Shown here: piece after piece, positions 40,758 to 61,676 of the stretch
How positions within the stretch are numbered: position 1 is the first letter of the stretch
Layout of the letters: every line of letters begins with the position of its first letter
DNA from: Pseudanabaena sp. UWO311
GTDB lineage: Bacteria; Cyanobacteriota; Cyanobacteriia; Pseudanabaenales; Pseudanabaenaceae
DNA length: 64,000 bases
Assembly: GCF_006937785.1 (NCBI RefSeq)
Contig: NZ_SJEE01000022.1
Span: 1-64,000, forward strand
Direction: 5' to 3'
The notes under the pieces: generated by a model
Databases searched by the model: none
The model's input: the letters and a program-made list of their open reading frames with translations, nothing else
What the model was told of the DNA's origin: nothing
Position numbers and translations under genes: made by a program

Positions 40758-41939
40758 ATGAGTAATTCTTCTAAACTTTTATCTTTCTCAATTTTAATTT
40801 GCGCCTCAATGAGTAGCATATCTCCTGCATTGAGAGCAGAAGATATGCAGGACAAGAAAGGGACATATCAAGAACAAAACAATCAGGTCAATCTTCTCGG
40901 TATTAAAGATAGCTCAAACATCTTGCCACTTCAAGAGATTGAAAAATCACTAAATAGAAGCCAAGATAGAATTTTAGCATTACCTAGTAGATTGAATCCT
41001 AGTTTGCAAACACCCGAACCAGAGATAATTCCTGTTCAAGAATTCATTTCGCCTCCTAAACTGGAGTCAGTAATGACTGATTATGCTGTCCTTGATAGCA
41101 TGACGACAAATTTCCAAGGTGATGATGATAAAATCGGACAAGTCAACCAGATTTTTGAACCTACTTGGAAATGGCGGTTTAAAGATGGAACTGTTATTAG
41201 CTTTCAGACAGGCTTTAATTCATTTAAATTAGCTGGAAAAGAGTCTATATACAATGTCCCGATACAGTTCGGAGTTGCAAAAAGAATTGGACCAGTGAAT
41301 CTTGATGTGCGAGGGGGAATTGATATCTTTAATCGCGTACCAACCACAGCAAATATAGAAGTGAATGCTAATCTATCAGTTTTTGACGGAGTGACTTTGT
41401 TTGGATTTTTTGAACAAAAGCCTTATAAGTCAAACGTAAATACCATCGAAAACCAAATCAAGATTCGCAGATTTGGACCTAATGTTTATTGGCAAATTGA
41501 TCCCTATACTACTTTATTCTCTTTGTATAGATGGGGTGATTATAGCGATGGCAACACGGATCAACAGTCTTTCAGTCGGTTAGAGCGGAAATGGGGACAG
41601 TTTGCGATCGCTGCTAATTTATTTACTTGGTTTTACGAACGAGAATCTGCACCCAATACTTATTTTTCACCAAGAGATTTTCTAGTCTATACAGGTGAAC
41701 TATCGTGGCAAGGGGATATATTTAATTTTTTAAATTGTCGGGTAGCATTAAATGCTGGAGAACAGAGAGGAGCAGGTAATTTTTCGCCTGCAAATAGTTA
41801 CCAAGCTAAGTGTACTGCAAAGATTTCCCCAAACATTGAGGCGGATTTGGGATATGCACATAGCAATGTCCGCAAGCCAGATACAGGACTTAGCTCTAAT
41901 AGCGAGTCAGTATCGGGGCAGGTCAGAATGAAATTTTAG
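40758..41939 (+). CDS. outer-membrane beta-barrel protein, BcsC-C-like (copy A)
   Basis: 393 residues: a signal peptide to about residue 27 (SPALRA), ~90 residues of linker, then a beta-barrel with alternating strands ending in RMKF, the C-terminal aromatic expected for BAM-assembled barrels. NTYFSPRDFLVYTGELSWQGDI resembles the signature region of the BcsC C-terminal (cellulose export) barrel. A paralogue with near-identical stretches (FSLYRWGDYxDGNTDQQSFS) lies at 46720-47910. Export channel for a polysaccharide is inferred from similarity and context. Confidence 0.65.
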   Translation: MSNSSKLLSFSILICASMSSISPALRAEDMQDKKGTYQEQNNQVNLLGIKDSSNILPLQEIEKSLNRSQDRILALPSRLNPSLQTPEPEIIPVQEFISPPKLESVMTDYAVLDSMTTNFQGDDDKIGQVNQIFEPTWKWRFKDGTVISFQTGFNSFKLAGKESIYNVPIQFGVAKRIGPVNLDVRGGIDIFNRVPTTANIEVNANLSVFDGVTLFGFFEQKPYKSNVNTIENQIKIRRFGPNVYWQIDPYTTLFSLYRWGDYSDGNTDQQSFSRLERKWGQFAIAANLFTWFYERESAPNTYFSPRDFLVYTGELSWQGDIFNFLNCRVALNAGEQRGAGNFSPANSYQAKCTAKISPNIEADLGYAHSNVRKPDTGLSSNSESVSGQVRMKF

Positions 41940-42310
41940 ACAAGATAAAATAGTGGAAATAAACAAAAAAAAAGGGGGGGGTAGTAAGCAAAAATGCTGA
42001 CGCAATTTATCAATATTAAGGGAATAGTATTAATTGACTAAGCTATTTCTTTAATAATAAGCCCACTAATTCTGACGCAAGCTAGCCAATTGCAACAGAA
42101 CTTATACCAAAGCACAAAATGGCGTAGACATTTTGTGCTTTTAAACCCCTTACTGGATTTGGTTTTTAATTTACAAAAGTGTCGTCACACTTTTGTGAAT
42201 TGGTATTACACAAGAAAATGTATTGTAAAGGCAATTCATGTCTTGCCTATACATTGCGATGCAGATTTTGCGTAAGTTCTATAAGAATCATTTTGTAATA
42301 AAGAACAAAT
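41940..42310. other. intergenic region with homopolymer tract and dispersed repeat
   Basis: Just after the barrel gene there is an A9-G8 homopolymer junction (about 41966-41983), then A+T-rich sequence and the dispersed repeat 42104-42206. No gene is seen. Confidence 0.6.
42104..42206. repeat. dispersed repeat, copy 2 (ATACCAA...TTGGTAT)
   Basis: Hairpin around AAGCACAAAATG/CATTTTGTGCTT, then ...CCCTTACTGGATTTGGTTTTTAA and a second hairpin AAAGTGT/ACACTTT, ending TTGGTATTAC. Same order and length as 18277-18380, with changes in one hairpin arm (A to G) matched in the other (T to C), i.e. compensatory. Confidence 0.75.
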
Positions 42311-42928
42311 ATGAATGACAAAAAGATCAAAGAACAATATGAGTTGGGGGCAAGAGAGTTTGTTGGCATAAATTTAGTAGGAGTAGACTTGTCTAACACT
42401 TGTTTGAATGAGATAAATTTATCTGGATCGAATCTTATGGGCGCAAAGCTCAATAACGTTGAATTTTGCAAAGCCAACCTGTCAGGAGTTCAGTTGATTG
42501 CAGCTTCTGCGATCCAATCCAATTTTAAGGAGACCGATTTCAGTAAAGCCGATTTGAGCGGAGCTACTTTTGTAGACTCAAATCTGGTAGAATCAAACCT
42601 CAGTGAAGCAACTTTGGTAGGCATTAATTTAAGTATGTCAAACCTTAGCAAGGCTGACTTAACTAAAGTCAATTTAAAGGGATGCTCACTTCTGCTTGGA
42701 ACCATTTTGGTTGGAGCTAATCTAAGTGGAGCTAATTTGAGTGGAGTTGTTTTAAGCGGCAGTAATTTGACTGGGGCGAACCTTAATGGAGCTAATTTAA
42801 GTGAAGCCAACTTAAATGGAGCCAATCTTAGCGAGGCAAATCTGAGTGATGCAAATTTACGTGGAGCCAAATTGGATAACACTAATTTTCAAGGAGCTAA
42901 TCTAACTGGTACGAAAGGACTAGATTAG
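42311..42928 (+). CDS. pentapeptide repeat protein
   Basis: 205 residues, from about residue 20 onward almost entirely A(N/D)L-x-x pentapeptides (SGANLSGVVLSGSNL, NGANLSEANL and so on), which fold into a right-handed beta-helix. No signal peptide or membrane segment, so probably cytoplasmic. Pentapeptide proteins are very common in cyanobacteria and mostly of unknown function; some mimic DNA. It lies at the head of the polysaccharide gene run, 78 bp before opgC, and may or may not belong to it. Confidence 0.88.
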   Translation: MNDKKIKEQYELGAREFVGINLVGVDLSNTCLNEINLSGSNLMGAKLNNVEFCKANLSGVQLIAASAIQSNFKETDFSKADLSGATFVDSNLVESNLSEATLVGINLSMSNLSKADLTKVNLKGCSLLLGTILVGANLSGANLSGVVLSGSNLTGANLNGANLSEANLNGANLSEANLSDANLRGAKLDNTNFQGANLTGTKGLD

Positions 42929-43006
42929 TCGGAACTTTGAGGATATAGAAACTCATCTTTATTAAATTTGCATCTCTAAATAACCAATTATTATTTCTTG
43001 ATTCCT

Positions 43007-44158
43007 ATGCTTAATTTACCTAAAACACCTTTTGACTTCCTTCGTGTTCCTTGGCGCTATGATCCAACGATGGATGAAAAGCGTGATTTTCGCCTTGATT
43101 TTTTACGGGGAATTGCGATCGTCTTTATGGTCGTAAACCATTTAGAGAGTAATTCTTATTTCAATAATGTGACACAGGGGCATATCTATGCCAGCGCTGC
43201 CGAAGGGTTTGTATTCCTCTCAGGTTTTGTACTGGGAATGGTTACTTTAAAGCGGATTAGCAAATTGGGCTTGACAGAAGCCATGAAAAAACTAGTAGAG
43301 CGATCGCTAGTTCTCTATGTGACCAGCTTTACACTGATGGCAGTTTTAGGATTATTAAGCATTATTGCTCCAGGTTGGACATTGCCATGTTTTGAGCAAG
43401 CTCCAGGCGCTTGGTGGCAAATTTTATTGGCGGCGGCAACTTTCCATTTAGCTCCTCCAGTAATCGATATTTTGCAGCTCTATGTGCTCTGTTTACTTGC
43501 TTCTCCAGTCATGTTTTGGTTGCTGAGACGAGGTTTCTGGATGCCGCTTCTGGCTATATCTTGGTCATTGTGGGGACTAAATCAGTTTCATCCCCATGTA
43601 TTTAGTTTTCATCCTATTGATCGCGATCATCCTTACTTCACCTTTGCCACTTGGCAACTGCTCTATGTGCATGGTCTGACAATGGGCTATCACAAAGAAT
43701 CTGTGGGCAAGATTTGGAATCGGATTCCTAAAATTCCATTTTTATTAGCGATGGGAGCGATCGCTATTGGGGCGATCGTGGCGGCTCAATATGATTTGCA
43801 GCTAGGCACTTGGCCAACCAAAGTTAACGATCGCGCATTATGGCTAAACCTCACTGATCGCAGTATCAACGGGCCAGTTCGCCTAGTAACGCTCGTAGCA
43901 TTATTCTCATTGCTATTTTCATTCATCGATGCTTGTTGGCAACCACTCTATAAAACCCTAGGAAATTTACTAGTTCCTTTAGGGCAAAACTCTCTTTACA
44001 TCTACACTACACATGTTCCCGTAACCGTGATTTGGTTTCTAGTTCCTGGACTTGTTCAAGGCAGTGCTTGGCTAACGACATTATTACAGGCGATCGCGAT
44101 CGCGGGTTTCTGGTTTGCTGTGAAATATAAAGTCCTATTCAATGTTATCCCTCGCTAA
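43007..44158 (+). CDS. OpgC-family membrane acyltransferase
   Basis: 383 residues from ATG 43007 (a TTG at 42998 would add three). About ten membrane segments. RDFRLDFLRGIAIVFMVVNH is the OpgC/acyltransferase-3-like N-terminal motif, with the conserved Asp/Arg and NH; SAAEGFVFLSGFVLG and LGQNSLYIYTTHVP follow. OpgC succinylates osmoregulated periplasmic glucans; here it may acylate the polysaccharide made by the downstream GT2. Two bp separate it from the DUF3131 gene. Confidence 0.85.
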   Translation: MLNLPKTPFDFLRVPWRYDPTMDEKRDFRLDFLRGIAIVFMVVNHLESNSYFNNVTQGHIYASAAEGFVFLSGFVLGMVTLKRISKLGLTEAMKKLVERSLVLYVTSFTLMAVLGLLSIIAPGWTLPCFEQAPGAWWQILLAAATFHLAPPVIDILQLYVLCLLASPVMFWLLRRGFWMPLLAISWSLWGLNQFHPHVFSFHPIDRDHPYFTFATWQLLYVHGLTMGYHKESVGKIWNRIPKIPFLLAMGAIAIGAIVAAQYDLQLGTWPTKVNDRALWLNLTDRSINGPVRLVTLVALFSLLFSFIDACWQPLYKTLGNLLVPLGQNSLYIYTTHVPVTVIWFLVPGLVQGSAWLTTLLQAIAIAGFWFAVKYKVLFNVIPR

Positions 44159-44160
44159 TC

Positions 44161-45441
44161 ATGAAAGTTTTATCTTCTCAAGGTCAACGTTTTTGGTCTT
44201 TCATTCTCTGTGGCTTTATTTTTCTGGCAGCTTGGGGAACTCACCAAATTATACTTTGGCATCAAAGCACAGCCGTACCTAAACCTGTAGTGCATCGTAT
44301 TCCCTTAAGCGAAGAAGATCGCCAACTGGCTCGAAGTGCATGGCGCTATTTTGAACTAAATCGCCAACCGACAGGGTTAGTCTCCTCAGCCGCATTTTTT
44401 CCTGCAACCACAATGTGGGATGTCGGCAGTCAGTTTGCTGGCATGACGGCTGCCCGTGAATTAGGATTGCTACCTGCCGATGAATTTGATCGTTGGATGG
44501 CTCAGTCTTTGGAGGCTCTAGCTAAAATAAAACTCTACAACAACGAACTTCCGAATAAAGCCTACAATGCTGCGACGCTTCAACCTGTTAACTATGGCAA
44601 ACTCGATACTTATCAGGAAATTGGCTTTTCAGCTTTAGATATGGGGCGATTGGGAATGTGGTTTGATATAATCTCTGCTCGCTATCCTCAGCATGCCAGT
44701 GCCATCAAAACAGTAACGTCCCAATGGAATCTCACTCGCTTAAGTAAGCAGGGACAACTGATGGGTACTGATGCACGTAATGGCAAAGAAGAATGGCAAC
44801 AGGAAGGAAGACTTGGCTATGAACAATATGGAGCTTACGGTTTAGCAAAATTAGGGCTTCAGCCAACAGTATCCCTAAATCCAAATACAGAAATGACTAC
44901 CTTTGATATTCTGGGTGTTGCTGTTCCTGTCGATCGCCGTACTACCTATCACAATTACGTGACCAGCGAGCCTTATGTTTTAGACGGACTAGAAAGTGGC
45001 TTTAAGGCATTGCCCGCCGAGTTTGCGGCTCGTATATTGCAAGTGCAGCAACGACGTTATTGGGCAACCAATCAGCTAACTGCTTGGTCAGAAGATAATC
45101 TTGATCGCGCTCCTTGGTTTGTCTATAACAACATCTTTGTCGATGGTCAGCCATGGAAAACTCTCGACTCCTCAGGTAAAGATGCTTCTGCTTTTCGTGG
45201 TAGCAGCACTAAGGCTGCGGTCGGATGGAATATGCTATTTCGTACTAGCTATACTGAGCGAGTTTATAAAGGGATGCGCTGGCTAGCTGATCCAGAGCGT
45301 GGCGTATTTGCTGGATACTACGAAGAAAGCCAAGAACCAAATCGAGCGCTTACGATAAATACCAATGGCATCATTTTAGAAGCATTACTATATAGTCACG
45401 TCGGTAAACCATTGGAGGAATGGGCTCATGCACCTCGTTAA
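44161..45441 (+). CDS. DUF3131 protein, single domain (membrane-anchored)
   Basis: 426 residues: N-terminal anchor at about 10-30 (SFILCGFIFLAAWGTHQII), then one DUF3131 domain: AWRYFELNRQPTGLV, LPNKAYN, GFSALDMGRLGMWFDI, QQEGRLGYEQYGAYGL, SEDNLDRAPWFVYNNIFVDG, TKAAVGWNMLF and NTNGIILEALLYS. The fold is expected to be an alpha/alpha-barrel like glycoamylases; the catalytic activity is unproven. Periplasmic location inferred. The next gene starts within its last codons (14-bp overlap). Confidence 0.85.
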   Translation: MKVLSSQGQRFWSFILCGFIFLAAWGTHQIILWHQSTAVPKPVVHRIPLSEEDRQLARSAWRYFELNRQPTGLVSSAAFFPATTMWDVGSQFAGMTAARELGLLPADEFDRWMAQSLEALAKIKLYNNELPNKAYNAATLQPVNYGKLDTYQEIGFSALDMGRLGMWFDIISARYPQHASAIKTVTSQWNLTRLSKQGQLMGTDARNGKEEWQQEGRLGYEQYGAYGLAKLGLQPTVSLNPNTEMTTFDILGVAVPVDRRTTYHNYVTSEPYVLDGLESGFKALPAEFAARILQVQQRRYWATNQLTAWSEDNLDRAPWFVYNNIFVDGQPWKTLDSSGKDASAFRGSSTKAAVGWNMLFRTSYTERVYKGMRWLADPERGVFAGYYEESQEPNRALTINTNGIILEALLYSHVGKPLEEWAHAPR

Positions 45442-46696
45442 ATTGTTTCAGGTACTTCAATTCCCCAAAAGATTACTGCACAATTTTTTGGGGGATCGAG
45501 ATACTTCAAAGCAAAGGGTCTTAAAAATTTTAGTATTAGGACTATTGCTAAGTTTTGCTTGCGAGTTGGGGATTGTTGAAAAGGGAATTTCCAATCCTGT
45601 TATAAATTCTCAAGTTTTGAGCAAAGCCTTCCCGATTAATCAAATGACTACGCCACCTAAAGTCGTGTTTTTTGGCTCTAGCACAACTGTGGGACTATGG
45701 GCATCCAGAGGCGATCGCCGTTGGAGTACTTTACTTTCTCGCTATATGGGCTGGCAGGAGATCAATGAGAGTCTCTCTGGCTCCACTTTATCGAAGGCAT
45801 CTCGCGATGGCAAGCCTTTACGCACGACAGCGGCTGTGCAGCGTTGGCGTGAAGCGATCACACCGCGACATCCTGATTTAGTTGTGATGTTATACGGAGT
45901 CAATGATGCCTATTGGAAATTGCCCTTGGGCGATGAGGTTAACCCCAAACCAGCAACTTTTCGCGGCGATCTGGAAACTATGCTTACAGGTATGGCTCAA
46001 GTGTTGCGCCCTGATCGCTTAGTCGTTGTCACCCCACAGCCAAATCAAGCTACTCGCGATCGGCGATCGCCTTATGACCTTGCTCTAAAAGAAGGAGCTA
46101 ATAAGATTGGGGCTAATTTTATTGATGCAGGACAAGAAGCCTTTCCCATTGACGAGTTATCCAACTATTCCGCTGATGGACTGCACTTAAATAATCTTGG
46201 ACATGCTGCGTTGGCTTCCTATATAGCAGGAAAGCTTATCGATATAGGGGTTGTGACTCCTCCTCCCATGGCCAAAGGTGGGAATAACATACCCGAAGCC
46301 AGAGAAGCTTTATCTGGCGGATTTTTGCGGATTGACGTTGATCGCCCGCTATCTTTTGGAGTTATTCGATCTATTTCAGCGCGTTGGCTGACTTCTGGTC
46401 AAGCTAGATTCGCTCTCATGCGTCCCGATGGACGTGGCGGCTACGAGCTAATTTATCGCACACCTAAATTTGCTGTATCTAAGGACATTACCGAAACAAA
46501 AGTTCCGCGTTGGTGGGTTTTAGAAGGCGATCGCTTGGCGGTATGGACTGACGGAAATTGTCTGGGTTCGCAGTCTACTGAGACGACTGCAATTCATCAT
46601 TTAGCGATCGAAATAAAGCAAGACATGTCAATTTCAGATGTTAAGTCTAGTAGTATTCGTGCTGATGATCACAAGCTTGCTATATGGACTTCATAA
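45428..46696 (+). CDS. SGNH/GDSL hydrolase, membrane-anchored
   Basis: 422 residues with an anchor at about 31-48 (VLKILVLGLLLSFACELGI). SGNH blocks: FFGSSTTVG with Ser84/85, SLSGST near 115-120, GVND at 157-160 and DGLHLNNLGH with Asp250 and His253. Residues ~290-410 form an extra beta-rich domain. Likely removes or transfers acyl groups on a carbohydrate; its pairing with OpgC and overlap with the DUF3131 gene support a polysaccharide substrate (inference). Confidence 0.85.
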   Translation: MHLVKLFQVLQFPKRLLHNFLGDRDTSKQRVLKILVLGLLLSFACELGIVEKGISNPVINSQVLSKAFPINQMTTPPKVVFFGSSTTVGLWASRGDRRWSTLLSRYMGWQEINESLSGSTLSKASRDGKPLRTTAAVQRWREAITPRHPDLVVMLYGVNDAYWKLPLGDEVNPKPATFRGDLETMLTGMAQVLRPDRLVVVTPQPNQATRDRRSPYDLALKEGANKIGANFIDAGQEAFPIDELSNYSADGLHLNNLGHAALASYIAGKLIDIGVVTPPPMAKGGNNIPEAREALSGGFLRIDVDRPLSFGVIRSISARWLTSGQARFALMRPDGRGGYELIYRTPKFAVSKDITETKVPRWWVLEGDRLAVWTDGNCLGSQSTETTAIHHLAIEIKQDMSISDVKSSSIRADDHKLAIWTS

Positions 46697-46719
46697 AATG
46701 TTTTCCCTTTAATAAATCG

Positions 46720-47910
46720 ATGCGGCTTTCTAAACTACTAAAATCTACTTTTTTTACGCTCTACTTCTGGCTATTTATTAGTATTACAGAAGCATCATTA
46801 TTTGCACAAGAGCAGCAGCTTTATATTGAAAATATTGAAAAAATAAATTCTGACGAAAATCAAGAAAGTAAAACTCTCTTAAATAAGGATATTTATAATT
46901 TGCAGTTTGCCACTCTAAAAGAGATTGAAGACTTGAACAAAATAGCAGATAAAATATTAATCGTAAGCCCCAGCATGAAAATGTCAGATCGAAAGTCATT
47001 ACCTATCGAAGAGTTTATCGCATCACCCAAAAAAGAACTAGTAATGACGGATTATGCAGTACTTGAGAGCATGATTATCAATTACCAAACCGATGATGAT
47101 AAAAATGGTCAATATAATCAAATTATTGAACCAACTTGGAAATTGCGTTTTAAAGACGATACTGTTATCAGTTTTCAAACAGGATTTAATTCCTTTAACT
47201 TATCGAAAAAACGATCAATATATAATACCCCATTACAGTTTGGAATTGGGAAAAAATTAGGCTCTGTCAACCTTAATTTGCGTGCTGGAATCGACATTTA
47301 TGATCGCTTAGCAACAACAGCAAATATAGAAGTAAATGCGAGTATTCCTGTCTTAAATGGTGTAACCCTATTTGGCTTTTTTGAGCAAAGACCTTATAAA
47401 TCAAATGTAAACACGCTTGAGAATCAAATCAAAATTCGCAGATTTGGACCAAATATTTATTGGCAAATCGATCCAAATACAGCTTTGTTTTCTCTATATC
47501 GGTGGGGTGACTACAATGATGGTAATACCGATCAACAGTCTTTTAGCCGATTAGAACGTAAGTTTGGTCAGTTTGCGATCGCTGCCAATTTATTTACTTG
47601 GTTTTACGAACGAGAAGCTACGCCAAATACCTACTTTTCACCACGAGATTTTCTCGTATACACTGGTGAACTATCTTGGCAAGGAGATATATTTAATTTC
47701 TTAAACTGTCGATTAGCCATTAGTAGTGGAGAACAAAGGGTAGACGCTATTTTTTCTCCTGCAAGTAGCTATCAAGCGAAATGTGTAGTCAAAGTTTCTC
47801 CAAATATTGAGGCTGATTTAGGCTATGCCTTTAGTAATGTGCGTAAGTCTGATACAGGGGATAGTTCAAAAAACGAAACCATTTCTGGGCAGCTGCGAAT
47901 GAAATTCTAA
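46720..47910 (+). CDS. outer-membrane beta-barrel protein, BcsC-C-like (copy B)
   Basis: 396 residues from ATG 46720, which starts a good signal peptide (MRLSKLLKSTFFTLYF... cut near SLFAQ); the in-frame ATG 46684 lies inside the SGNH gene and is less likely. Paralogue of 40758-41939: the barrel halves share long stretches (ATTANIEVNA, KIRRFGPNxYWQIDP, NTYFSPRDFLVYTGELSWQGD), while the N-terminal 100 residues differ apart from the VMTDYAVLxSM block. It ends RMKF. Predicted export barrel of the polysaccharide system. Confidence 0.68.
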   Translation: MRLSKLLKSTFFTLYFWLFISITEASLFAQEQQLYIENIEKINSDENQESKTLLNKDIYNLQFATLKEIEDLNKIADKILIVSPSMKMSDRKSLPIEEFIASPKKELVMTDYAVLESMIINYQTDDDKNGQYNQIIEPTWKLRFKDDTVISFQTGFNSFNLSKKRSIYNTPLQFGIGKKLGSVNLNLRAGIDIYDRLATTANIEVNASIPVLNGVTLFGFFEQRPYKSNVNTLENQIKIRRFGPNIYWQIDPNTALFSLYRWGDYNDGNTDQQSFSRLERKFGQFAIAANLFTWFYEREATPNTYFSPRDFLVYTGELSWQGDIFNFLNCRLAISSGEQRVDAIFSPASSYQAKCVVKVSPNIEADLGYAFSNVRKSDTGDSSKNETISGQLRMKF

Positions 47911-48012
47911 TGATACTTTAATGATCTTTAGCCTTATGATTATAGTTAGCGACGCAATGCGACGTTTATCGATTTCTACCAAGTTCTTATGGGGTATTAC
48001 AGGAATTCAAAT

Positions 48013-49524: not shown

Positions 49525-52500
49525 GCATCTATCCACGCTGGGTCAGATTAGTATCAGGTTTCATTATTGGTGTGATGCTGGCGATTTTATGTTCGCAAGT
49601 TCAGATTGAGCTAGCGATCGCCCAAAATCAACGTAATCGCGATCGGACGATCCCTAGTAGTTCAGGTAACGCTTGTGCAGTTTTGCCAGCACTACTCAAT
49701 AGTGAAGAGAAGGAATATGCTAGAGCCGCTTGGCAATATTTTGCGAAGAACTATCAACCTGCCACAGGATTTGTGAATGCGACGGGAGGATATCCTTCGG
49801 GGACATTATGGGATTATGGAAATTACCTAGTTGCCTTAAATACAGCCCGTTGGCTGGACTTAATTTCTCAAAAAGAATTTGATGAAAAGTTCAATAAGTT
49901 CCTAGTAGGTTTAGGTTCACTTAAACTCTTTGATGGTACTTTGCCAAACAAGGTCTACAACTCAGCTAATGGTGCAATGGTAGATTATGGCAACAATCCG
50001 ACCCCACGTGGTATTGGTTGGTCAGCTTTAGATATTGGCAGAATTCTGGCAGCGTTTCATATTATTCGTACCTGTCATCCTAAGTATAATGACTGGATGA
50101 AGGGGATTTTGGGGAATTGGAAGCTGACACAATCGCTCCTAAACGATCAACTCTACGGAGCAACGATAACACCCGACGGCAAAACCATGCTAGTCCAAGA
50201 AGGAAGACTAGGCTATGAAGAATATGCCGTGCGCGGTTACGAACTATGGGGATTTAAAGCAGACAAAGCCAAATCCAATCATCCATTTAAATTTGTAGAT
50301 ATCTATGGCATCAAGATCCCTGTGGATTTACGTGACTTCCAAAGTACCAATGCTAATAATTATGTGGTCAGCGAGTCTTATATCCTTGATGGAATTGAGT
50401 TTGGATGGGATGCAGAACTAGCAGATTATGCGGGTAGAGTATTGGAAGTACAACGTCGTCGCTATTCCAATACGGGGCAGTTGACTGCCGTAACCGAAGA
50501 TAACCTTGATGCGCCGCCTTACTTTATTTACAATACGGTTTATTCCAATGGGGTAAACTTTGCGGCGATTACCGATGAGAATAAGCCGATCCCACAATTT
50601 CGCAGTATCAGTACTAAAGCTGCTTTTGGTTGGCACTATCTCTATCCCACCAATGCCTATGCGAAAAAGGTTTTTGATGCAGTCAAAGGGCTACGCAGTC
50701 AAAAAGGCGAAGGTTTTTATGCAGGTATCTATGAAGCCTCAAAAATTCCTAATAAGTCTTTAACAGGAAATACGAATGGGTTGATTTTAGAAATCCTTTA
50801 TTACAAAGCAAGAGGAAATCGTCCCATCGTCGATCGCGGAGATTTAAAACCAACTCCAGCCGCCACAGGTTCAGAGACAGGCGATAACGCTAATGCAACT
50901 GCGGCAGCAATACCAGAACCGATCGCGCCAGTTCCTGCGGAGTCCACACCTTGCCCTAAGCTGAACCAACCTCTGTCGATCTCTGAACGACGCTATGCTC
51001 TAGCTGCTTGGCAATATTTTCGCACTAATTCCCAAGCAACGGGTTTAATCAACGATCGCAGTGATTTTAAGGGCGTAACTCTCTGGGGATTGGGAGATTA
51101 CCTTGCGGCTCTGCGATCGGCAAGGGTCTTAGAGATCATTCCTCAAGATGAATTTGATCGCTATGTGAGGCAATTACTGGGAACGGTCAAGCAACTTCCC
51201 TTAGTTGGCGGCGAGCTACCTAACCGCGCTTACGATCCTTGGTCACTGCAACCTGTAGACTATGGAGGCAATCCAACCGATGGGACAGGCTGGTCGGCTG
51301 CCGATCTAGGTCGATTTCTATCGGCTTTGCATGGCTTAAAGTCCTGCTACCCTCAATACACTGATGCTGTCGATCGCACTTTACTAGATTGGTCATATTT
51401 GCGTGTAGTTCGCGATCGCGCTTTAGTTAGCGGCACTGTCACTAGAGATAATGCAGGTCGCAGCTTGGCTCGGGCACAACCTGAAACTCGTTTAGGCTAT
51501 AGCGAATATGCCGCCAGAGCATTTCAGTTATGGGGCTTTGATGTTGATCGTTCCGTAGTCGGAACTCAATATACCAAAGCCAATATCGAAGGCATGGAAG
51601 TACCTGTGCAACGAAATGATGCACCAAAATCAAAGGAGACAATTTATACGGTTAGTGAACCATTTTTGCTTTATGGCTTAGAATTTGGCTTTGATCCGCA
51701 GATGAGAGCTTTAGCTGAGCCGATTTTTAAAGCGCAAGCAGAACGCTATCGACGCACGAAGTTATTCACCGCAGCCAATACGGCGGCAATCAATACCCCT
51801 CCATTTGTTTTGCATAGCACGATCGTCGGTAATGGTCAGGGCTGGGCAAACCTCGATGATGAGGGTAAATCGGTAAAGAGCGATCGCCTCGTCAGTACAG
51901 GTGTAGCTTTTGCGATGTATGCGCTTTTTCCTGACGATCCCTATAGTCGAGAACTTTGGCAATCTGTTACCGATCTTTATAATCCGCAACTTGGATTTTA
52001 CGAGGGTTTTTACGAAAGCTCTGGCAATCGCGAAAACAATCAAACCGCCAATACCAATAGCTTGATTTTGCAAGCGATGCTCTATCGGGCGACCAATCGC
52101 CAGCCGCTTTTACGCCCTACGTCAAATAATTCTCCTTGGTGGCAAGCGATCGCCTCCGACGATATGAGCCGAGGATTACCAAACAGCAAAATTCCAACTG
52201 CAAAACTTGTTACCGATGGAACTAATACTTTCTGGGTATCACTAAATGTTGAAGTTGCAAGCATTCCAAAACCACCAGATATTCCTGCTGTCATCAAACA
52301 ACCCGTTCCTATAACCGTCAAACCAGTAGTTGATCCAGTTATACCGCCGCCGCTTAAAGCTCAACCGATCTCTTTATCTGACAGCGATGCGATCGCCGCA
52401 AGGCAAGCATGGAAATATTTTGAGAATAACTCCAATCCGCAGACAGGACTGGTCAATGCGGTTAATGGCTATGCATGGACAACACTTTGGGATCAAGGCA

Positions 52501-53516
52501 GTGCTTTACTCGGCTTACATGCTGCACAGCAGCTTGGCATAATTTCGCCAGAAATTTTTCAGCAGCGTCTTAATACGCTCCTTAACACCCTCGAAAAACT
52601 GTCATTGCCTAAACATGGCTTACCAAACAAAGCCTATAGCACTATCTCTGCTGCTATGTTTCAGCTCGACAATACCCCTGACCCTAATGGCATCAGCGGA
52701 TGGTCGGCTCTGGATACAGCGCGTTTTTTGGGTGCAATGCATATCATGCGGGTTCATCATCCTATCTATAGTGAGCGCATTAACAACATCGTCAAGCGTT
52801 GGCAATTAGCCAAATTAGTCAGAGATGGTTTACTTTATGGTGGACATCCCGACTCTAGCGATCGCCTGCAATATCTTCAAGAGGGACGACTCGGCTATGA
52901 GCAATATGCTGCAAGCTGTCTCAAACTTTGGGATATCGAAGCCAAGAATGCACTTAATAATCCTCCGATCAAAACTGTACAAGTCGATGGCATCAGTTTA
53001 GATACAGATCGACGCGATCTTCAAAGCTCAGGTGCAAGCAATCATCTCACTAATGATCCTTATGTCTTATGGGGCTTAGAAATTGGCTGGAATGAAATGG
53101 GTAAGCGCCAAGCCGAGACTCTATATCAACTGCAAAAGCAACGCTATGAACGAACCAAAATTGTTACCTGCATCAATGAAGATTCCATTAATCGACCGCC
53201 TTACTTCCTTTACTACAGTGCTTTTGTCAATGGACAACCTTGGCAAGCTATTGATAGCAAAGGCAATCCCCATCCTGAATTAAAATTTGCCAGCACCAAG
53301 GCAGCCTTTGGTTGGAGCGTTCTCAAAACTGATGACTATGCTATTAAGCTACGCGAAACTGTAAGTTTTCTAGCTGACAAAAATCTCGGTTATCTCTCTG
53401 GGAGGTATGAAGACCCTAACTTAGGAGTGAACAACATAGCGGATGTCAATACTAATGCGATCGTTTTAGAAAGCATATTGTTCAAGGCGAGAGGCAGGGT
53501 TCCACTTATTGTCTAA
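49503..53516 (+). CDS. triple-DUF3131 periplasmic protein
   Basis: 1337 residues. Signal peptide/anchor at about 13-40 (LVSGFIIGVMLAILC), then three DUF3131 domains at about 63-442, 490-870 and 955-1337, separated by Pro-rich linkers (IPKPPDIP..., VIPPPLKAQP). Domains 1 and 3 keep the family signature (TEDNLDAPPYF, NEDSINRPPYF; QEGRLGYE), whereas domain 2 has TAANTAAINTPPF and QPETRLGYSE in the same places, losing the Glu-Asp pair. A degenerate binding domain between two possibly active ones is the simplest reading. Overlaps the upstream DUF3131 gene by 22 bp. Confidence 0.85.
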   Translation: MGRNFSLSIYPRWVRLVSGFIIGVMLAILCSQVQIELAIAQNQRNRDRTIPSSSGNACAVLPALLNSEEKEYARAAWQYFAKNYQPATGFVNATGGYPSGTLWDYGNYLVALNTARWLDLISQKEFDEKFNKFLVGLGSLKLFDGTLPNKVYNSANGAMVDYGNNPTPRGIGWSALDIGRILAAFHIIRTCHPKYNDWMKGILGNWKLTQSLLNDQLYGATITPDGKTMLVQEGRLGYEEYAVRGYELWGFKADKAKSNHPFKFVDIYGIKIPVDLRDFQSTNANNYVVSESYILDGIEFGWDAELADYAGRVLEVQRRRYSNTGQLTAVTEDNLDAPPYFIYNTVYSNGVNFAAITDENKPIPQFRSISTKAAFGWHYLYPTNAYAKKVFDAVKGLRSQKGEGFYAGIYEASKIPNKSLTGNTNGLILEILYYKARGNRPIVDRGDLKPTPAATGSETGDNANATAAAIPEPIAPVPAESTPCPKLNQPLSISERRYALAAWQYFRTNSQATGLINDRSDFKGVTLWGLGDYLAALRSARVLEIIPQDEFDRYVRQLLGTVKQLPLVGGELPNRAYDPWSLQPVDYGGNPTDGTGWSAADLGRFLSALHGLKSCYPQYTDAVDRTLLDWSYLRVVRDRALVSGTVTRDNAGRSLARAQPETRLGYSEYAARAFQLWGFDVDRSVVGTQYTKANIEGMEVPVQRNDAPKSKETIYTVSEPFLLYGLEFGFDPQMRALAEPIFKAQAERYRRTKLFTAANTAAINTPPFVLHSTIVGNGQGWANLDDEGKSVKSDRLVSTGVAFAMYALFPDDPYSRELWQSVTDLYNPQLGFYEGFYESSGNRENNQTANTNSLILQAMLYRATNRQPLLRPTSNNSPWWQAIASDDMSRGLPNSKIPTAKLVTDGTNTFWVSLNVEVASIPKPPDIPAVIKQPVPITVKPVVDPVIPPPLKAQPISLSDSDAIAARQAWKYFENNSNPQTGLVNAVNGYAWTTLWDQGSALLGLHAAQQLGIISPEIFQQRLNTLLNTLEKLSLPKHGLPNKAYSTISAAMFQLDNTPDPNGISGWSALDTARFLGAMHIMRVHHPIYSERINNIVKRWQLAKLVRDGLLYGGHPDSSDRLQYLQEGRLGYEQYAASCLKLWDIEAKNALNNPPIKTVQVDGISLDTDRRDLQSSGASNHLTNDPYVLWGLEIGWNEMGKRQAETLYQLQKQRYERTKIVTCINEDSINRPPYFLYYSAFVNGQPWQAIDSKGNPHPELKFASTKAAFGWSVLKTDDYAIKLRETVSFLADKNLGYLSGRYEDPNLGVNNIADVNTNAIVLESILFKARGRVPLIV

Positions 53517-53599
53517 AAGTATTGGTTGAGAGTTCAATTTATTACTTCATGGTCAAAATTGCTTGATTTACTCTACTAATAAAGTTTTCAATAATCACT

Positions 53600-54748
53600 A
53601 TGTTTAAATCTTTTAAATTATCTCCAACCTTCCATAAAAAAAATCAGTCGCAAAATCGATTGATGAAACTATCCTTTCTCTTTAGTCCGATTTTGAGCCT
53701 ATTTCTATATGGAGTTAGTGATGCTGAGTCTAGACCTCATATTAACTCCTCTCCCAAGGAAGCAATCGAAGCTTTACCAACAGCTAAAGCTGCCATCAAG
53801 CCTCCTATTTTACTTGGTCTTTATCCCAGTGGTTATGTAGGAGAACAAAGCGTGATTAATCGTGAACTTCGTGAATTAGAGGAATGGGCAGGTAAAAAAC
53901 ATGCGATCGTGGGTATCTTTATGGACATTCAAGACGAAAATCCTGACTACAACATTGGTCATCGATTGGAACTCCTTCGAGAGAATGGCTATACTGCATT
54001 CATCAATCTCAAATCTACTTATAATGCTGCGGCGATCGCCAGAGGAGATTTAGATCAAGACATACGCAGAGTAGCAAATGCTGTTGCTGATTGGACAAAA
54101 AAAGGTGATGAACGGATGATGTTCATTGCTCCATTGCAAGAAATGAATATCAGTGGTGAAGCTTATAGCCTCGATCCTGAAAATTTCAAACTTGCTTATA
54201 AAAGATTTCAGCAAATTTTTGCGGAATTCGACATCCCTCCAAAATCTGTACTTTGGGTGTTTTCTCCCAATGGTTTTAGCAGAGTTCGCAATCACGACTT
54301 CGAGAACTATTATCCGAGTGATGCCCAAGTTGATATCGTCGGTTTTAGTGGTTATAACTGGGGATATTGTGAGAGCCCACTTAATCAAAGAAAACTCTGG
54401 GACAAACCTGAACATGTCTATGAGCCTTTTATCAAGAGAATGCAAAAGCTTGCCCCAAATAAACCAATTTTTATTACCCAAATTGCTTCTAGTAGCTACT
54501 CAAGCCCTAAAAATTCCAATAACATAGCCAAAGACAATTGGTTATATGACACTTACAAATATTTTGCTGCTTCTCAATCTGTACAAGCCATCATCTATTT
54601 CAATATCCAAAAAGAGTGTGATTGGGCTTTAAACTCTCAAAGTCAAAACACGACTAGAAACTATAGGGAAAGTGTCGCTGATAAAACATATGGATACATC
54701 GAGCCTCAAAATATGTCCCAATTTTTTCAATCGCTAATCAAGTTCTAG
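53600..54748 (+). CDS. GH26-like glycanase-fold protein, exported
   Basis: 382 residues with an N-terminal signal or anchor (about 21-43, LMKLSFLFSPILSLFLYGV). LLGLYPSGYVGE and HAIVGIFMDIQDENP, FIAPLQEMNISGE with Glu near residue 179 (acid/base position) and VDIVGFSGYNWGY fit a TIM-barrel of the GH26 mannanase/glycanase type. At the expected nucleophile position the sequence is PIFITQIASS, with Gln294 in place of Glu. If the alignment is right this protein may bind but not cut, or use another residue. Family assignment is tentative. Confidence 0.6.
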   Translation: MFKSFKLSPTFHKKNQSQNRLMKLSFLFSPILSLFLYGVSDAESRPHINSSPKEAIEALPTAKAAIKPPILLGLYPSGYVGEQSVINRELRELEEWAGKKHAIVGIFMDIQDENPDYNIGHRLELLRENGYTAFINLKSTYNAAAIARGDLDQDIRRVANAVADWTKKGDERMMFIAPLQEMNISGEAYSLDPENFKLAYKRFQQIFAEFDIPPKSVLWVFSPNGFSRVRNHDFENYYPSDAQVDIVGFSGYNWGYCESPLNQRKLWDKPEHVYEPFIKRMQKLAPNKPIFITQIASSSYSSPKNSNNIAKDNWLYDTYKYFAASQSVQAIIYFNIQKECDWALNSQSQNTTRNYRESVADKTYGYIEPQNMSQFFQSLIKF

Positions 54749-54812
54749 ATCCCTCCAATTTTTTACTTGTCAGATCTTTTTTAATTTTTTAATTACTAAA
54801 TGCAGGTAGTTT

Positions 54813-56807
54813 ATGACTTCACCCACTACGATTCTTGAGAACGCCCCAAGCTTTATCGGAAACATGCGATCGCGTCTAAAGGATCGCACTTTACTATTTC
54901 GCTATCTTGCTGAAATCAATATTATTTTAGGAGCTTGGTATATATCTTGGCGATTTAGCCATTCTATAAATTTCAATGCGCTCTGGATATCGATTCCTTT
55001 AATTCTGGCAGAGCTTTATAGTTTTATCGGCGGCACGATGTTCACTATTGGGCTATGGAGACCGCTCGAACGCGAAGTGCGATCACTTGACCAAATGCGT
55101 CCTGCGTTACCAGCAGATGATTTCCCTACTGTTGATATATTCATCACCTGCTACAACGAACCTGTCGAAATGGTTGAAGAAACGGCAAAAGCTGCCTTAG
55201 CTATGGACTATCCAGTGAGTAAGCTGCGAGTATACATCCTCGATGATGGCAGGTCAGACGATATGAGAAATATGGCGCAAATGCTGGCGATCGCCGATTT
55301 GCGATCGCCGAAAAATCAAGTAGAAGCCGAAAGGCTGGGCAGCGAACTTAATGACCTAGAGCAAAAACTCCAGAAATTACAAAGTCTCTTACCTGATACT
55401 CAATCCGCTGAATTGTTTCTTCAAAATCCCCCCGATTCTCATCCTGCGGTGAAGTTCTTGCAAACAATGCGAGATTCTCTAATGATTGTCAGCAGCGCGA
55501 CTAAGAGTGAAGTCAGTGTCAGCGATCGCTTAGCCAGCGAACAAAAACATCTAGAAAAAGCGATCGCTCAAAAGCAAAGAGAACTAGGCGATCTTGCCCG
55601 TTGTCGTTACATTGGACGCATCAAAGCAAAGGGCAAGGCTCACCATGCTAAAGCAGGTAATATCAACCATGCCATCTTTTCTGGAGAAACTCATGGTGCA
55701 TTTATTCTTACTCTTGATGCTGACCATATTCCTAAACCCCAATTTCTCAAGCGTATTCTCCCTTACTTCTTTAGTTATAATCAGTGGAATGGAAAATACG
55801 ACAGTAATAGGATCGCCTTTGTACAAACGCCTCAAGATTTTTACAACTTGCCTGAAGGTGATCCCTATGGACATTCAGCACATTTGTTCTATGGCCCAAT
55901 TCAGCAAGGTAAAGATGGCTTGAACTCAGCTTTTTATACAGGCACAAATGCAATTTTGCGCCGAGAAGCGTTACTAAGCGTCGGTTTACAATACTTCTCA
56001 GAATCTTTAGACAAAGATGCCGATCGCATTAACGAATTTAATTTAATTGGTGGGATGTCCAGCAGCAGCATTACCGAAGATATGAACACTGCCATGCGAT
56101 TGCATAGTGCTGGCTGGAAATCTGTCTATCATAATGAGTTATTAGCTAAAGGGCTGGCTCCTGACGATCTAGTCTCGACCCTGAAGCAACGGCTGCGATG
56201 GGCACAAGGAACAATTCAGGTACTTCTGCAAGAAAATCCAATAACTAAGCCTGGGCTATCTTTTTGGCAGCGACTGCAATATTTCCAGACCATGTATAGC
56301 TACTTTTCTGGATTCTTCACCGTAATTTTTATCTGTTGTCCCATTATCTTTTTCTTTACAGATATTGCTCCTGTCAGTTCTTATGGCGCTGACTTTGCAA
56401 TTCATTTCTTTCCTGCTTTCGTGATTAATCGCCTAACCTTCCTTGCGGCAACTTGGGGGATTCCTGCGGGAGAGCTATGGCGCTCTGAGCAATATGCGAT
56501 CGCCCTGTTCCCTTTGTTTATTCAATCTGTTTGGAGTGTTTTTTCTAGAACCCCACTGAGTTTTCAAGTCACTCCAAAACAGCGTCAGTCAGGTAATTAT
56601 CTTTACCTTGTTGTGCCACAATTAACAATTATTGCTCTCTCTGTTTTGGGAATGACATGGAGCTTAATTCGATTTATGATGGGTACATTGTCTGACCCTT
56701 GGGTTCACCTTCTCAATAGTGGTTGGGCAATATATAATGTTTGCTTACTCAGTGTCGTTGTCAAGGCAGCTGTGTGGCAACCGAAAGAAGAATCTCCAAA
56801 AGTATAA
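54813..56807 (+). CDS. cellulose-synthase-like family 2 glycosyltransferase (processive, membrane)
   Basis: 664 residues: two N-terminal membrane segments (34-50, 57-80), a cytoplasmic GT-A domain with DDG at 144-146, DAD at 302-304, TED at 421-423 and QRLRW at 459-463, then about five C-terminal membrane segments. These are the BcsA/CesA hallmarks for synthesis and export of a beta-glucan. Two oddities: a ~100-residue, coiled-coil-rich insertion (165-265) between DDG and DAD, and no PilZ c-di-GMP domain. The product could be cellulose or another beta-linked glycan. Weak AGG ribosome-binding site before ATG 54813. Confidence 0.9.
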   Translation: MTSPTTILENAPSFIGNMRSRLKDRTLLFRYLAEINIILGAWYISWRFSHSINFNALWISIPLILAELYSFIGGTMFTIGLWRPLEREVRSLDQMRPALPADDFPTVDIFITCYNEPVEMVEETAKAALAMDYPVSKLRVYILDDGRSDDMRNMAQMLAIADLRSPKNQVEAERLGSELNDLEQKLQKLQSLLPDTQSAELFLQNPPDSHPAVKFLQTMRDSLMIVSSATKSEVSVSDRLASEQKHLEKAIAQKQRELGDLARCRYIGRIKAKGKAHHAKAGNINHAIFSGETHGAFILTLDADHIPKPQFLKRILPYFFSYNQWNGKYDSNRIAFVQTPQDFYNLPEGDPYGHSAHLFYGPIQQGKDGLNSAFYTGTNAILRREALLSVGLQYFSESLDKDADRINEFNLIGGMSSSSITEDMNTAMRLHSAGWKSVYHNELLAKGLAPDDLVSTLKQRLRWAQGTIQVLLQENPITKPGLSFWQRLQYFQTMYSYFSGFFTVIFICCPIIFFFTDIAPVSSYGADFAIHFFPAFVINRLTFLAATWGIPAGELWRSEQYAIALFPLFIQSVWSVFSRTPLSFQVTPKQRQSGNYLYLVVPQLTIIALSVLGMTWSLIRFMMGTLSDPWVHLLNSGWAIYNVCLLSVVVKAAVWQPKEESPKV

Positions 56808-56845: not shown

Positions 56846-57163
56846 ATGAATGAATCGATCAGTGTATTTCAGCCAGAAGGTATTATCGATAGTGTTGGTG
56901 GTAATCAAATTCGTCAAGATGTTGGCGATCGCCTTGAGGCTGGAGTTGAGACAATTTTGATTGACCTTACCAATATTTCTTTTATGGATAGTTCTGGTCT
57001 GGGGGCGATGGTGGTGACACTGCAACGAGTTAGATCAAAAGGAGCTAAGTTATATCTTTGCTCTCTCAACGATCAGATCAAAATCATTTTGGAATTAACC
57101 AAAATGGATAAGGTTTTTGATATTTTGCCAGACCGCGCCGCATTTGATGCATTGATCGCCTAA
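56846..57163 (+). CDS. STAS anti-sigma factor antagonist (RsbV/SpoIIAA-like)
   Basis: 105 residues. TILIDLTNISFMDSSGLGAM contains the DSSG phosphorylation site (Ser49/Ser50 region) of SpoIIAA/RsbV proteins, followed by RVRSKGAKLYLCSLNDQIK. Unphosphorylated, it should bind the RsbW-like kinase and free its target. It sits 38 bp behind the GT2 gene with GAGG upstream of ATG, probably on the same transcript; a REC-PP2C phosphatase and an RsbW-like kinase gene follow. Confidence 0.9.
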   Translation: MNESISVFQPEGIIDSVGGNQIRQDVGDRLEAGVETILIDLTNISFMDSSGLGAMVVTLQRVRSKGAKLYLCSLNDQIKIILELTKMDKVFDILPDRAAFDALIA

Positions 57164-57196
57164 AAGTCGAAATAGCTGATTGACTGACAGATCGCT

Positions 57197-57262
57197 GTAG
57201 GGGCAGGTTTAGTAGATCCGTGATTGGCTTACAGCAAAGCTTTTAGCAAAACCTGCCCCTAC
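57197..57262. repeat. inverted repeat GTAGGGGCAGGTTT...AAACCTGCCCCTAC
   Basis: Perfect 14-bp arms; the spacer (TTTAGTAGAT...GTGATTGG...GCAAAGCTTTTAGC) parallels that of the element at 1295-1359. Shorter outer CTGACA ends. Second copy of the dispersed MITE-like family. Confidence 0.7.
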
Positions 57263-58501: not shown

Positions 58502-58542
58502 TCTGTTTGCCTGAAGCACTATATTTAGATAGAGTTGTATGA

Positions 58543-58570: not shown

Positions 58571-58682
58571 AAAAAAATCATTTAAACTGAAAAAAAGTTC
58601 CTTGAAGAACCGTATCTCAGTTACCAACAAATTTACAATCAGGTTTATATCTTATCTCAAAACTTATCTTGGTAGAACTGCG

Positions 58683-59105
58683 GTGACTCAAACAATTTTT
58701 TTGCAAGTAACTACTAGTCTTAGCGATCTTGTTCACGTTTTGAATTGGTTTGAGCAACTTCCACATACATCTGTACCAAATGCTGATTGGTTACGGTGTA
58801 AAACAGCTCTAGCTGAAGTATTTACCAACTCTGTGCGTCATGCCCATAGAGACATGTCATCGGAAACCCCCATTAGTTTAGAAGCTAGTCTTACTGATAG
58901 TTACATTGAGATCAAAGTATTTGATTTTGGGACAGGTTTCGATCTTTCAGAAAAACTATCAAAAATAGATGAAGTGGACGTTATGGCTCTAGGTGGCCGT
59001 GGGCTGGACTTGATCAGTCAAATGGTGGATGTTTTTACCTACGATAAAATCTCAGATGGACGAAGCTGTATGAAAATAGTCAGGTACTATGTCCCAATCT
59101 CTTGA
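58683..59105 (+). CDS. RsbW/SpoIIAB-like anti-sigma serine kinase (HATPase_c_2)
   Basis: 140 residues from GTG 58683 ([16 protein letters not shown], the usual family start); a TTG at 58602 would add 27 residues. N-box [17 protein letters not shown] with Glu and Asn, G1 [12 protein letters not shown]2 [11 protein letters not shown]. Family members phosphorylate the STAS partner and sequester a sigma factor or other target. With the STAS and PP2C genes it completes a partner-switching set similar in content to the Synechocystis icfG cluster. Its 3' end overlaps the convergent kinase gene by 19 bp. Confidence 0.85.
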
Positions 59106-61636: not shown

Positions 61637-61676
61637 GAATATAATCTTAGGATTGTTGACTAAGTTGACTAAAAAG

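Follow-up and report, generated by a model that had tools for sequence, protein, structure and literature searches.

A DUF3131 gene cluster of Pseudanabaena sp. UWO311 as a candidate beta-glucan synthase system under partner-switch control

The stretch analysed here, 64,000 nt of contig NZ_SJEE01000022.1 (the window), belongs to the 5.2 Mb genome (G000) of the cyanobacterium Pseudanabaena sp. UWO311 and carries a gene cluster built on a cellulose-synthase-like family 2 glycosyltransferase (GT2), three proteins with DUF3131 domains, outer-membrane barrels and the genes of a partner switch (Table 1). We consider it probable that this is an envelope beta-glucan synthase system whose membrane GT2 is controlled directly by the partner switch and not by cyclic di-GMP through a PilZ domain. 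A wider proposal, plausible to us but put forward tentatively, is that PCR-type synthases are a partner-switch-gated class in which the plant-like PCR region docks an RsbW-like kinase, built in or separate, that is bound and released by STAS, that DUF3131 is an unrecognised glycoside hydrolase (GH) or transglycosylase of the SGL clan acting on the product, and that the system spans several phyla, is partly plasmid-borne and is governed by HetR in heterocyst formers.

Partner-switch genes beside and within the synthase

A gene for a STAS-only protein begins 38 bp after the end of the GT2 gene and, together with a SpoIIE phosphatase and a HATPase_c_2 kinase, forms a set that is conserved in relatives. 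An earlier note on this stretch had described the genes from 40758 to 56807; that run is real, but the cluster continues through the regulatory genes at 56846–61738, and the partner switch directly behind the GT2 had been missed. Relatives were compared in 86 loci, 80 from named genomes and six from plasmids, with genes assigned by blastp best hits at 1e-5; many loci are cut by contig ends. The 80 were the best of 570 stretches in a scan of genome contigs and are all cyanobacterial by title, so other phyla are seen only through the plasmids; four genomes occur under two identifiers (L032/L041, L039/L043, L035/L093 and L061/L151). GT2 was recognised in 71 of the 86 loci, SpoIIE in 67, STAS in 63, the kinase in 48 and the GH26-like protein in nine. 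Distances could be counted in 51 of the 80 genome loci (15 were cut by contig ends and 14 had no full GT2): in 46 of them, STAS is no more than 1.5 kb from GT2, while 39 have SpoIIE at up to 4 kb and 35 the kinase at up to 5 kb. The window's genome as a whole gave 11 STAS and 13 HATPase_c_2 matches.

In some lineages, the kinase is part of the synthase. The 784-residue GT2 of genome G180 (locus L154) has an internal HATPase_c_2 domain (Pfam E 1e-16), with STAS and SpoIIE downstream, and its insertion point corresponds to residue ~206 of the window GT2, inside the PCR-like region. Using a profile of the separate cluster kinases, we detected an RsbW-like kinase domain at this one site in 11 GT2 open reading frames (ORFs), with E values from 5e-30 to 4e-51 (L057, L080, L104–L107, L111–L114 and L154). 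STAS is no more than 2 kb away in seven of them, the catalytic motifs are intact in 10 as far as covered (the L057 ORF is without the gating loop), and the fused protein is matched over its full length in two further genomes (G573 and G596). A separate kinase gene accompanies none of the 11 fused ORFs and 49 of the 64 non-fused ones (p 1.6e-6); among the 48 of these 75 ORFs with SpoIIE covered, the counts are 0 of 6 and 40 of 42 (p 2e-6), and because loci and genomes are related, these and all other p-values given here overstate independence. The first table of this survey, which required 6 kb of room, held 35 ORFs. The cyanobacterial kinase profile partly misses Proteobacterial kinases, L124 and L157 being scored as having none despite annotated ATP-binding proteins. 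Fusion at a single site and mutual exclusion with a separate kinase indicate that the target of the switch is probably the GT2 synthase itself, whose catalysis may be gated by STAS binding.

A tree was built from the window kinase, kinases of 16 of 17 hand-picked loci, all 11 fused domains and six of 12 own-genome paralogues. In it, the fused domains enclose the separate cyanobacterial cluster kinases, which are set apart from five of the six paralogues, as if the kinase had first belonged to the synthase and split off later. The long-branched L174, a paralogue, groups with the separate kinases, and the kinase of Pseudooceanicola (L123), whose branch is very long, lies outside them; several of these forks are below the starred support level, and the root is arbitrary and serves for drawing only.

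Partner-switching modules classically control sigma factors. Here too, the switch might act on a sigma factor and hence on transcription of the cluster, its place beside GT2 being regulatory linkage only. Sigma control has been proposed for alr3758, the Anabaena counterpart of the STAS gene, in the part of the HetR paper that covers this gene (PMC4192349), and the STAS outputs SypA and HmpV are likewise without a known target in the relevant part of PMC8256260. Among the scanned cluster genes, however, we found no sigma factor gene (the genome itself was not searched for sigma factors), and a kinase domain lying inside the synthase in 11 ORFs, with the separate gene then not found, is unexpected if the role is purely transcriptional. 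We regard the sigma-factor explanation as unlikely.

Besides the published proposal for alr3758, several observations count against the system as proposed here. STAS is missing near GT2 in five of the 51 testable loci and SpoIIE within 4 kb in 12, while at L081 and L096, which have SpoIIE, no kinase, fused or separate, was detected at E 1e-8. A barrel homologue was recognised in only 33 of the 86 loci. The fused GT2 of G180 (L154:8583–10937) has lost its catalytic motifs (TEK, EKLHW and no FxVTxK), and G180 is absent from the DUF3131-positive genomes. Moreover, the fusion is evidence of association and not of which way control runs. The motif-less L154 protein still adjoins STAS and SpoIIE and is perhaps a purely regulatory relic.

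Table 1. Features of the cluster in the window
Feature	Position	Strand	Basis or remark
Barrel 1, outer-membrane, PgaA/PelB/BcsC-type, no TPR found	40758..41939	+	65% identity to barrel 2
Pentapeptide-repeat protein, within optional module	42311..42928	+	Pfam Pentapeptide E 4e-52
OpgC-type membrane acyltransferase, optional acylation module	42998..44158	+	Pfam OpgC_C E 1e-49
D1, single-domain DUF3131, optional module, N-terminal hydrophobic segment 13-33	44161..45441	+	Pfam E 7e-135
SGNH/GDSL acyl hydrolase or transferase, N-terminal hydrophobic segment	45428..46696	+	Pfam Lipase_GDSL_2 E 1e-19
Barrel 2, outer-membrane, paralogue of barrel 1	46684..47910	+	Identity to barrel 1; fold match of predicted model
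D2, single-domain DUF3131, core, N-terminal hydrophobic segment	47989..49524	+	Pfam E 6e-157; adjoins triple protein in relatives
Triple DUF3131 protein; domains 49713-50816, 50991-52094, 52395-53495	49503..53516	+	Pfam
GH26-like protein, endoglucanase H (CtLic26A) kin, Gln at nucleophile position	53600..54748	+	Pfam/phmmer; alignment
GT2, cellulose-synthase-like, no PilZ match, PCR-type architecture	54813..56807	+	Pfam Cellulose_synt E 3e-36; motifs
PCR-like insertion of GT2 between DDG and DAD, ~residues 160-268	55290..55616	+	Motif spacing
STAS-only protein, DSSG motif	56846..57163	+	Pfam STAS E 3e-18
REC-SpoIIE serine phosphatase	57365..58519	-	Pfam SpoIIE E 2e-39, Response_reg E 7e-28
RsbW-like serine kinase (HATPase_c_2)	58602..59105	+	Pfam E 2e-15
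Hybrid sensor kinase PAS-HisKA-HATPase-REC-REC-Hpt	59087..61738	-	Pfam domains

Synthase, DUF3131 proteins and accessory modules

The ORFs named in the earlier note are all present on the + strand, in the places and with the overlaps it had described (14 bp between 44161–45441 and 45428–46696, and 22 bp between D2 and the triple DUF3131 protein), except that its D2 start at 48013 is an internal ATG of a frame opening at 47989; its gene list had passed over the pentapeptide-repeat gene inside the run. Pfam bore out its OpgC, SGNH and DUF3131 calls, the last as three proteins with five domains. Promoter and terminator scans of the cluster were at or below chance level, so its operon limits are not shown.

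All the motifs DDG, DAD, TED, QRLRW and FQVTPK (gating motif FxVTxK) are kept in the GT2, which has 158 residues from DDG to DAD as against 48 in four Proteobacterial homologues. It gave no PilZ match in a Pfam scan at E 0.1; lacking PilZ and carrying an insertion between U1 and U2, it has the architecture of a PCR-type cyanobacterial cellulose synthase. The BcsA hallmarks credited to it earlier hold for the catalytic and gating motifs; on the NCBI cellulose synthase model TIGR03030, it scores 327.9 bits against a cut-off of 699.1. That the cluster departs from a standard cellulose operon was seen correctly: along with the missing PilZ domain, BcsB (PF03170) has zero matches in the window's genome and the Pfam scan found no BcsZ family among the cluster genes. 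A standard bcs operon was ruled out by the lack of PilZ and BcsB. Only four hydrophobic segments were seen in GT2, and hydrophobicity was left out of topology reasoning.

The window's genome has no DUF3131 match beyond the five domains of the cluster. Compared with PDB folds, the DUF3131 model is closest to the GH189 entry 8wy1 (Z 33.7) and then GH144 (~31); entries of the SGL clan range from 24.9 to 33.7, and other (alpha/alpha)6 enzymes reach 21.5 or less. At the level of a predicted model, the fold of DUF3131 is thus the glucan-processing (alpha/alpha)6 fold of the SGL clan (GH144/162/189/192–194). The only PDB sequence match of the DUF3131 profile is again 8wy1 (E 4e-4, positions 2–89). 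A second Pfam family, sought with E up to 10, was rejected, as the two matches were at chance level and each occurred in one of 19 members. The novel periplasmic component proposed in the earlier note thereby gains a glucan-processing fold, and its activity and periplasmic place stay putative.

Candidate catalytic residues come from comparison with GH189, in whose sequences E1356, E1400 and E1442 were placed by the spacing given in the relevant part of PMC10834661; PF10091 was searched solely to collect GH144 and GH189 sequences. The Glu of 'AVTEDN' pairs with the GH189 nucleophile E1442 in two low-confidence profile alignments. It is kept in D1 (3/3), D2 (47/47), the first (92/92) and third (35/36) domains of the triple protein and 10 of 13 Proteobacterial rows, and is absent from all 78 second-domain rows. 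The third position of 'GYEE', the candidate general acid, is occupied by Glu in the first (88/92) and second (77/78) domains. With both candidate Glu kept only there, the first domain alone looks fully equipped.

It is also conceivable, though we think it rather unlikely, that the DUF3131 domains are non-catalytic, serving as glycan-binding or scaffold (alpha/alpha)6 domains. Up to five copies occur per cluster, the candidate general acid is replaced by Asn in 40 of 47 D2 and by Gln in all 36 third domains and all three D1, the second domain is without the candidate nucleophile, and the GH26-like partner is also degenerate. Further points detract from a catalytic role: the whole-length profile alignment has 97% probability with a mixed GH144/GH189 profile, 60% with GH189 alone and 20% with GH144 alone, the second half scores 1% against GH189 with no usable score, and the GH189-alone alignment stops short of E1442. 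The alignment of DUF3131 to the SGL-clan residues E239/F286/Y367 (XcSGL numbering) is likewise not reliable. Given the low-confidence alignments and the missing second-half score, the catalytic residues stay tentative. What speaks for an enzyme is the first domain of the triple protein, with Glu at both sites in 88/92 and 92/92 rows and Asp106, Arg109, Glu228 and Glu340 nearly invariant; the remaining domains may bind glucan. Separately, long ORFs in five genomes of the phylum combine a GH189-type domain with more synthase-like sequence behind it (L132, L133, L134, L135 and L138), and cyclic beta-1,2-glucan synthases thus seem to be present in a few of its members.

Neither barrel has a Pfam match, and TPR gave none in either protein in the Pfam scan. 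The barrel 2 model (mean predicted local distance difference test score 79, ~90 in the barrel part) matches PgaA, PelB and BcsC with Z of 28.0, 25.0 and 24.2, the next barrel following at 17.5, which supports calling the barrels BcsC-like in fold.

In the window, the acylation genes are flanked by the paralogous barrel genes; G013 has them in inverted orientation. An OpgC beside an SGNH protein resembles the AT3-SGNH acyltransferases, and the SGNH protein keeps its GSS, GVND and DGLH motifs. Best hits to OpgC were found in four of the 86 loci (two of them Proteobacterial plasmids), to SGNH in five, to D1 in four and to the pentapeptide protein in six; at L077, L084 and L100, pentapeptide homologues adjoin an SGNH gene. 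Since OpgC, SGNH and D1 occur in so few loci, acylation appears as an optional module in cyanobacteria: of the acylation step proposed earlier, the genes are present in the window, and their conserved membership was not borne out.

The GH26-like protein scores exactly at the Glyco_hydro_26 cut-off (20.2 bits) and matches endoglucanase H entries in phmmer (E 1e-12). Cluster copies of its family were found in the window and at L032, L034, L035, L037, L039, L044, L052, L056, L067, L079 and L088; in Pseudanabaena biceps (L035), the protein is fused to the triple DUF3131 protein. The acid/base Glu is kept where covered, and the position of the CtLic26A nucleophile is occupied by Gln in the window protein and in 14 of the 16 other rows; the rows cover 12 distinct genomes including the window's, and the remaining two are a gap and a different GH26 gene with Glu. 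This exchange makes trimming by the protein unlikely; the product-trimming role assigned to it in the earlier note was discarded on the Gln found in all cluster copies that cover the site. It is probably a pseudo-enzyme or glycan binder.

The nature of the product bears on this whole set. An osmoregulated periplasmic glucan with beta-1,2 or mixed linkages, which DUF3131 would cyclise and OpgC would acylate, would fit the best fold match of DUF3131, a cyclic beta-1,2-glucan cyclization domain, and the presence of OpgC in the window cluster. It would also fit the closest PDB kin of the GH26-like protein, endoglucanase H, a lichenase, and the GH16 genes of the Vibrio and Paracoccus clusters. The window GT2 falls below the cellulose synthase cut-off, a point against a cellulose-like product, and the four Proteobacterial homologues have SED and QRFKY in place of TED and QRLRW. 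A salt-shock module of four Shewanella loci also carries the DUF3131 label in the part of PMC8371737 that describes it. On the other side, the cellulose synthase motifs are preserved in the cyanobacterial GT2, an export barrel is more in keeping with a secreted polymer than with a ring that stays in the periplasm, and OpgG (PF04349) has zero matches in the window's genome, which ruled out an operon for osmoregulated periplasmic glucans; the window GT2 reaches at most 37 bits on OpgH models with cut-offs of at least 328. A review section also has the PCR-type cesA of Synechococcus 7002 making a cellulose layer (PMC12430437); that enzyme is likened to the window GT2 by class label. We consider such a glucan a minority possibility, and a probably cellulose-like beta-glucan remains our preferred product.

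Distribution in cyanobacteria and on plasmids

DUF3131 is patchily distributed, occurring in eight of 58 genomes (the window's included) and in four of 25 other genomes of the genus. Across an even sample of 292 cyanobacterial genomes, again with the window's own, 16 have strong DUF3131 matches, 16 have the GT2 (E <1e-60) and 15 have both (Fisher 5e-23); the exceptions are G180 with GT2 only and G088 with DUF3131 and a GT2 at 4.8e-58. Weak DUF3131 rows were left out of the 16 (G119 and G141, fragments over the cut-off, and G282, below it); with them, the count is 15 of 19. DUF3131 and GT2 are no more than 5 kb apart in 14 of the 15, with a single DUF3131 block counted in each genome (further DUF3131 is present in G174 and G243). 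In G238, the DUF3131 genes are 3 Mb from GT2, while GT2, STAS, SpoIIE, kinase and barrel are still together. The fullest order in relatives is barrel, D2, triple DUF3131, GH26-like protein (not always present), GT2, STAS, SpoIIE and kinase. GT2, export barrel and DUF3131 as one unit, as first suggested for this stretch, are thus upheld by core order and co-occurrence; of the conserved co-occurrence that had been proposed as a check, DUF3131 with this GT2 clade was confirmed, and OpgC and SGNH did not follow.

That the cluster should consist of unrelated envelope operons lying side by side in this strain is highly improbable. The OpgC, SGNH, D1 and pentapeptide genes were not found in most cyanobacterial clusters, and their inversion in G013 would agree with it; the core order, however, is held across many genera and the functional set across phyla, with DUF3131 and GT2 together in 15 of 16 genomes. 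A chance neighbourhood was rejected on the conserved core and this co-occurrence; for the core, such a reading is refuted, and it is possible for the pentapeptide gene.

The counterpart of the cluster in Anabaena PCC 7120 is alr3754–alr3758. In the parts of the papers that deal with these genes, alr3754 codes for an outer-membrane protein with a BcsC domain and responds to nitrogen starvation with ~10-fold induction (PMC4365693), the PCR-type synthases listed include alr3757 (under Nostoc PCC 7120; PMC12430437), and alr3758 encodes an anti-sigma antagonist and has a HetR chromatin immunoprecipitation sequencing site, a promoter upregulated in heterocysts, and RNA sequencing counts of 11 reads at 6 h and 0 in the hetR mutant (PMC4192349). 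The published alr3758 forward primer (PMC4192349) has an exact match in two of 217 genomes of PCC 7120's family, both relatives and not PCC 7120 itself. The matching site belongs to the GT2 gene that precedes STAS and translates as FIQAVWSVF (FIQSVWSVF in the window), and the gene order there is barrel, D2, DUF3131, GT2, STAS, SpoIIE, kinase and hybrid kinase, by which alr3755 and alr3756 would be DUF3131 genes. In these relatives, the reverse primer has six mismatches and the HetR site two; there was one match within three mismatches against a chance mean of 0.68, so HetR control in them is not shown.

Outside cyanobacteria, 27 plasmid records match the triple DUF3131 protein. A Salmonella plasmid carries kinase, STAS, response-regulator/phosphatase, OpgC, GT2, three DUF3131, a globin, a response-regulator protein and a GH2 protein; the set on a Pantoea plasmid is of the same type, its OpgC being visible only as two pieces without annotation, and an IS66 element lies amid its switch genes. 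The Vibrio cluster consists of SpoIIE, STAS, GT2, three DUF3131 and GH16, the Paracoccus cluster has in addition two GH16 and a TPR-PgaA_barrel protein, and that of Pseudooceanicola a heme-NO-binding protein and an acyltransferase. The globin genes lie at L122:17801–18235 (Pantoea) and L157:14798–15232 (Salmonella), and the heme-NO-binding gene at L123:11696–12238; their presence in DUF3131 clusters suggests O2 or NO as the input to the switch. A 299-residue protein with no Pfam match stands beside REC-SpoIIE in Pantoea (L122:9142–10041) and Salmonella (L157:6323–7222), in the latter between the REC-SpoIIE gene and OpgC. In Mesorhizobium (L125:1–4106) and Sulfitobacter (L126:7541–13119), GT2 and DUF3131 occur with polysaccharide-deacetylase domains, located in the GT2 protein of Sulfitobacter and, weakly, in the DUF3131 protein of Mesorhizobium, and no switch was seen; this arrangement is perhaps a second DUF3131 system.

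Proposed mechanism and comparison with known systems

As read from the domains, the hybrid kinase would phosphorylate the SpoIIE phosphatase at its REC domain, and this phosphatase and the RsbW-like kinase would together set the phosphorylation of STAS at the DSSG serine. STAS would then act on GT2 via the kinase, built into the PCR-like region in some lineages and encoded separately in that of the window, and docking of STAS or kinase on this region probably gates synthesis. Judging by its motifs, GT2 would make a beta-glucan, probably cellulose-like, across the inner membrane. In the periplasm, membrane-anchored DUF3131 domains, whose fold points to glucan processing, may cleave or re-join the chain; the first domain of the triple protein is the likeliest of them to be active. 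OpgC and SGNH, where present, may acylate the glucan, and the modelled PgaA/PelB/BcsC-type barrel would release the polymer. In heterocyst formers, the STAS gene of the cluster would be under HetR, as the published PCC 7120 promoter data suggest.

The open-access literature, with most subscription papers and all bioRxiv preprints outside the scope, yielded no description of the whole system or of the kinase-GT2 fusion, no account of the function of DUF3131 and no mention of PF11329. The earlier note's word 'undescribed' thus applies to the whole, while the GT2 class and single Anabaena counterpart genes are already published. The single parts are known, and what is new is the claim on how a synthase class is controlled. 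In the sections of a 2025 review on PilZ-less cyanobacterial cellulose synthases, their partners, control and role are left open and the mechanism of alr3757 is still to be determined (PMC12430437); a partner switch wired into the synthase (alr3754–alr3758 in Anabaena PCC 7120) would be a concrete answer. If this is true, a sigma-type phosphorylation switch explains the control of a cyanobacterial cellulose synthase class, and a polysaccharide synthase is opened directly by a type of signalling module otherwise known from sigma-factor control. The HetR-target STAS gene would gain a candidate function other than sigma control, DUF3131 would be offered one, and enterobacterial and roseobacter plasmid clusters would be linked to the same machinery.

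The bcs operon shares with the cluster a BcsA-type GT2 with the gating motif FxVTxK and an export barrel of the BcsC/PgaA/PelB fold; the window cluster differs in having DUF3131 and a partner switch, a barrel without TPR and no PilZ, BcsB or BcsZ family. The PCR-type cyanobacterial cellulose synthase likewise has no PilZ and a long insertion between U1 and U2, and the review passages on it name no DUF3131, barrel or partner switch, with zero occurrences of STAS and OpgC (PMC12430437). The GH189/SGL clan shares the (alpha/alpha)6 fold with DUF3131, but the GH189 domain is part of a synthase, whereas DUF3131 forms separate proteins beside GT2 and a Pfam family of its own; the main text of the SGL clan paper has zero occurrences of 'DUF' (PMC12102758). 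The OpgGHC pathway shares the OpgC-type acyltransferase, and the window's genome differs from it in lacking OpgG and in a GT2 far below the OpgH cut-offs. Block 3b of Klebsiella pneumoniae, given as a gene list in part of a population-genomics study and likened here by that list alone, also combines a cellulose synthase, three DUF3131, OpgC, a hybrid kinase, an anti-sigma factor and an antagonist (PMC12974863). On the regulatory side, the sections of PMC8256260 on these systems describe an N-terminal STAS domain in the Anabaena glycosyltransferase all4160, as well as STAS, kinase and phosphatase genes tied to polysaccharide and without a known sigma target in SypE/SypA of Vibrio fischeri and HmpUVW of Nostoc punctiforme. 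Unlike SypE/SypA and HmpUVW, the cluster family described here includes 11 ORFs in which the kinase domain lies inside the polysaccharide synthase.

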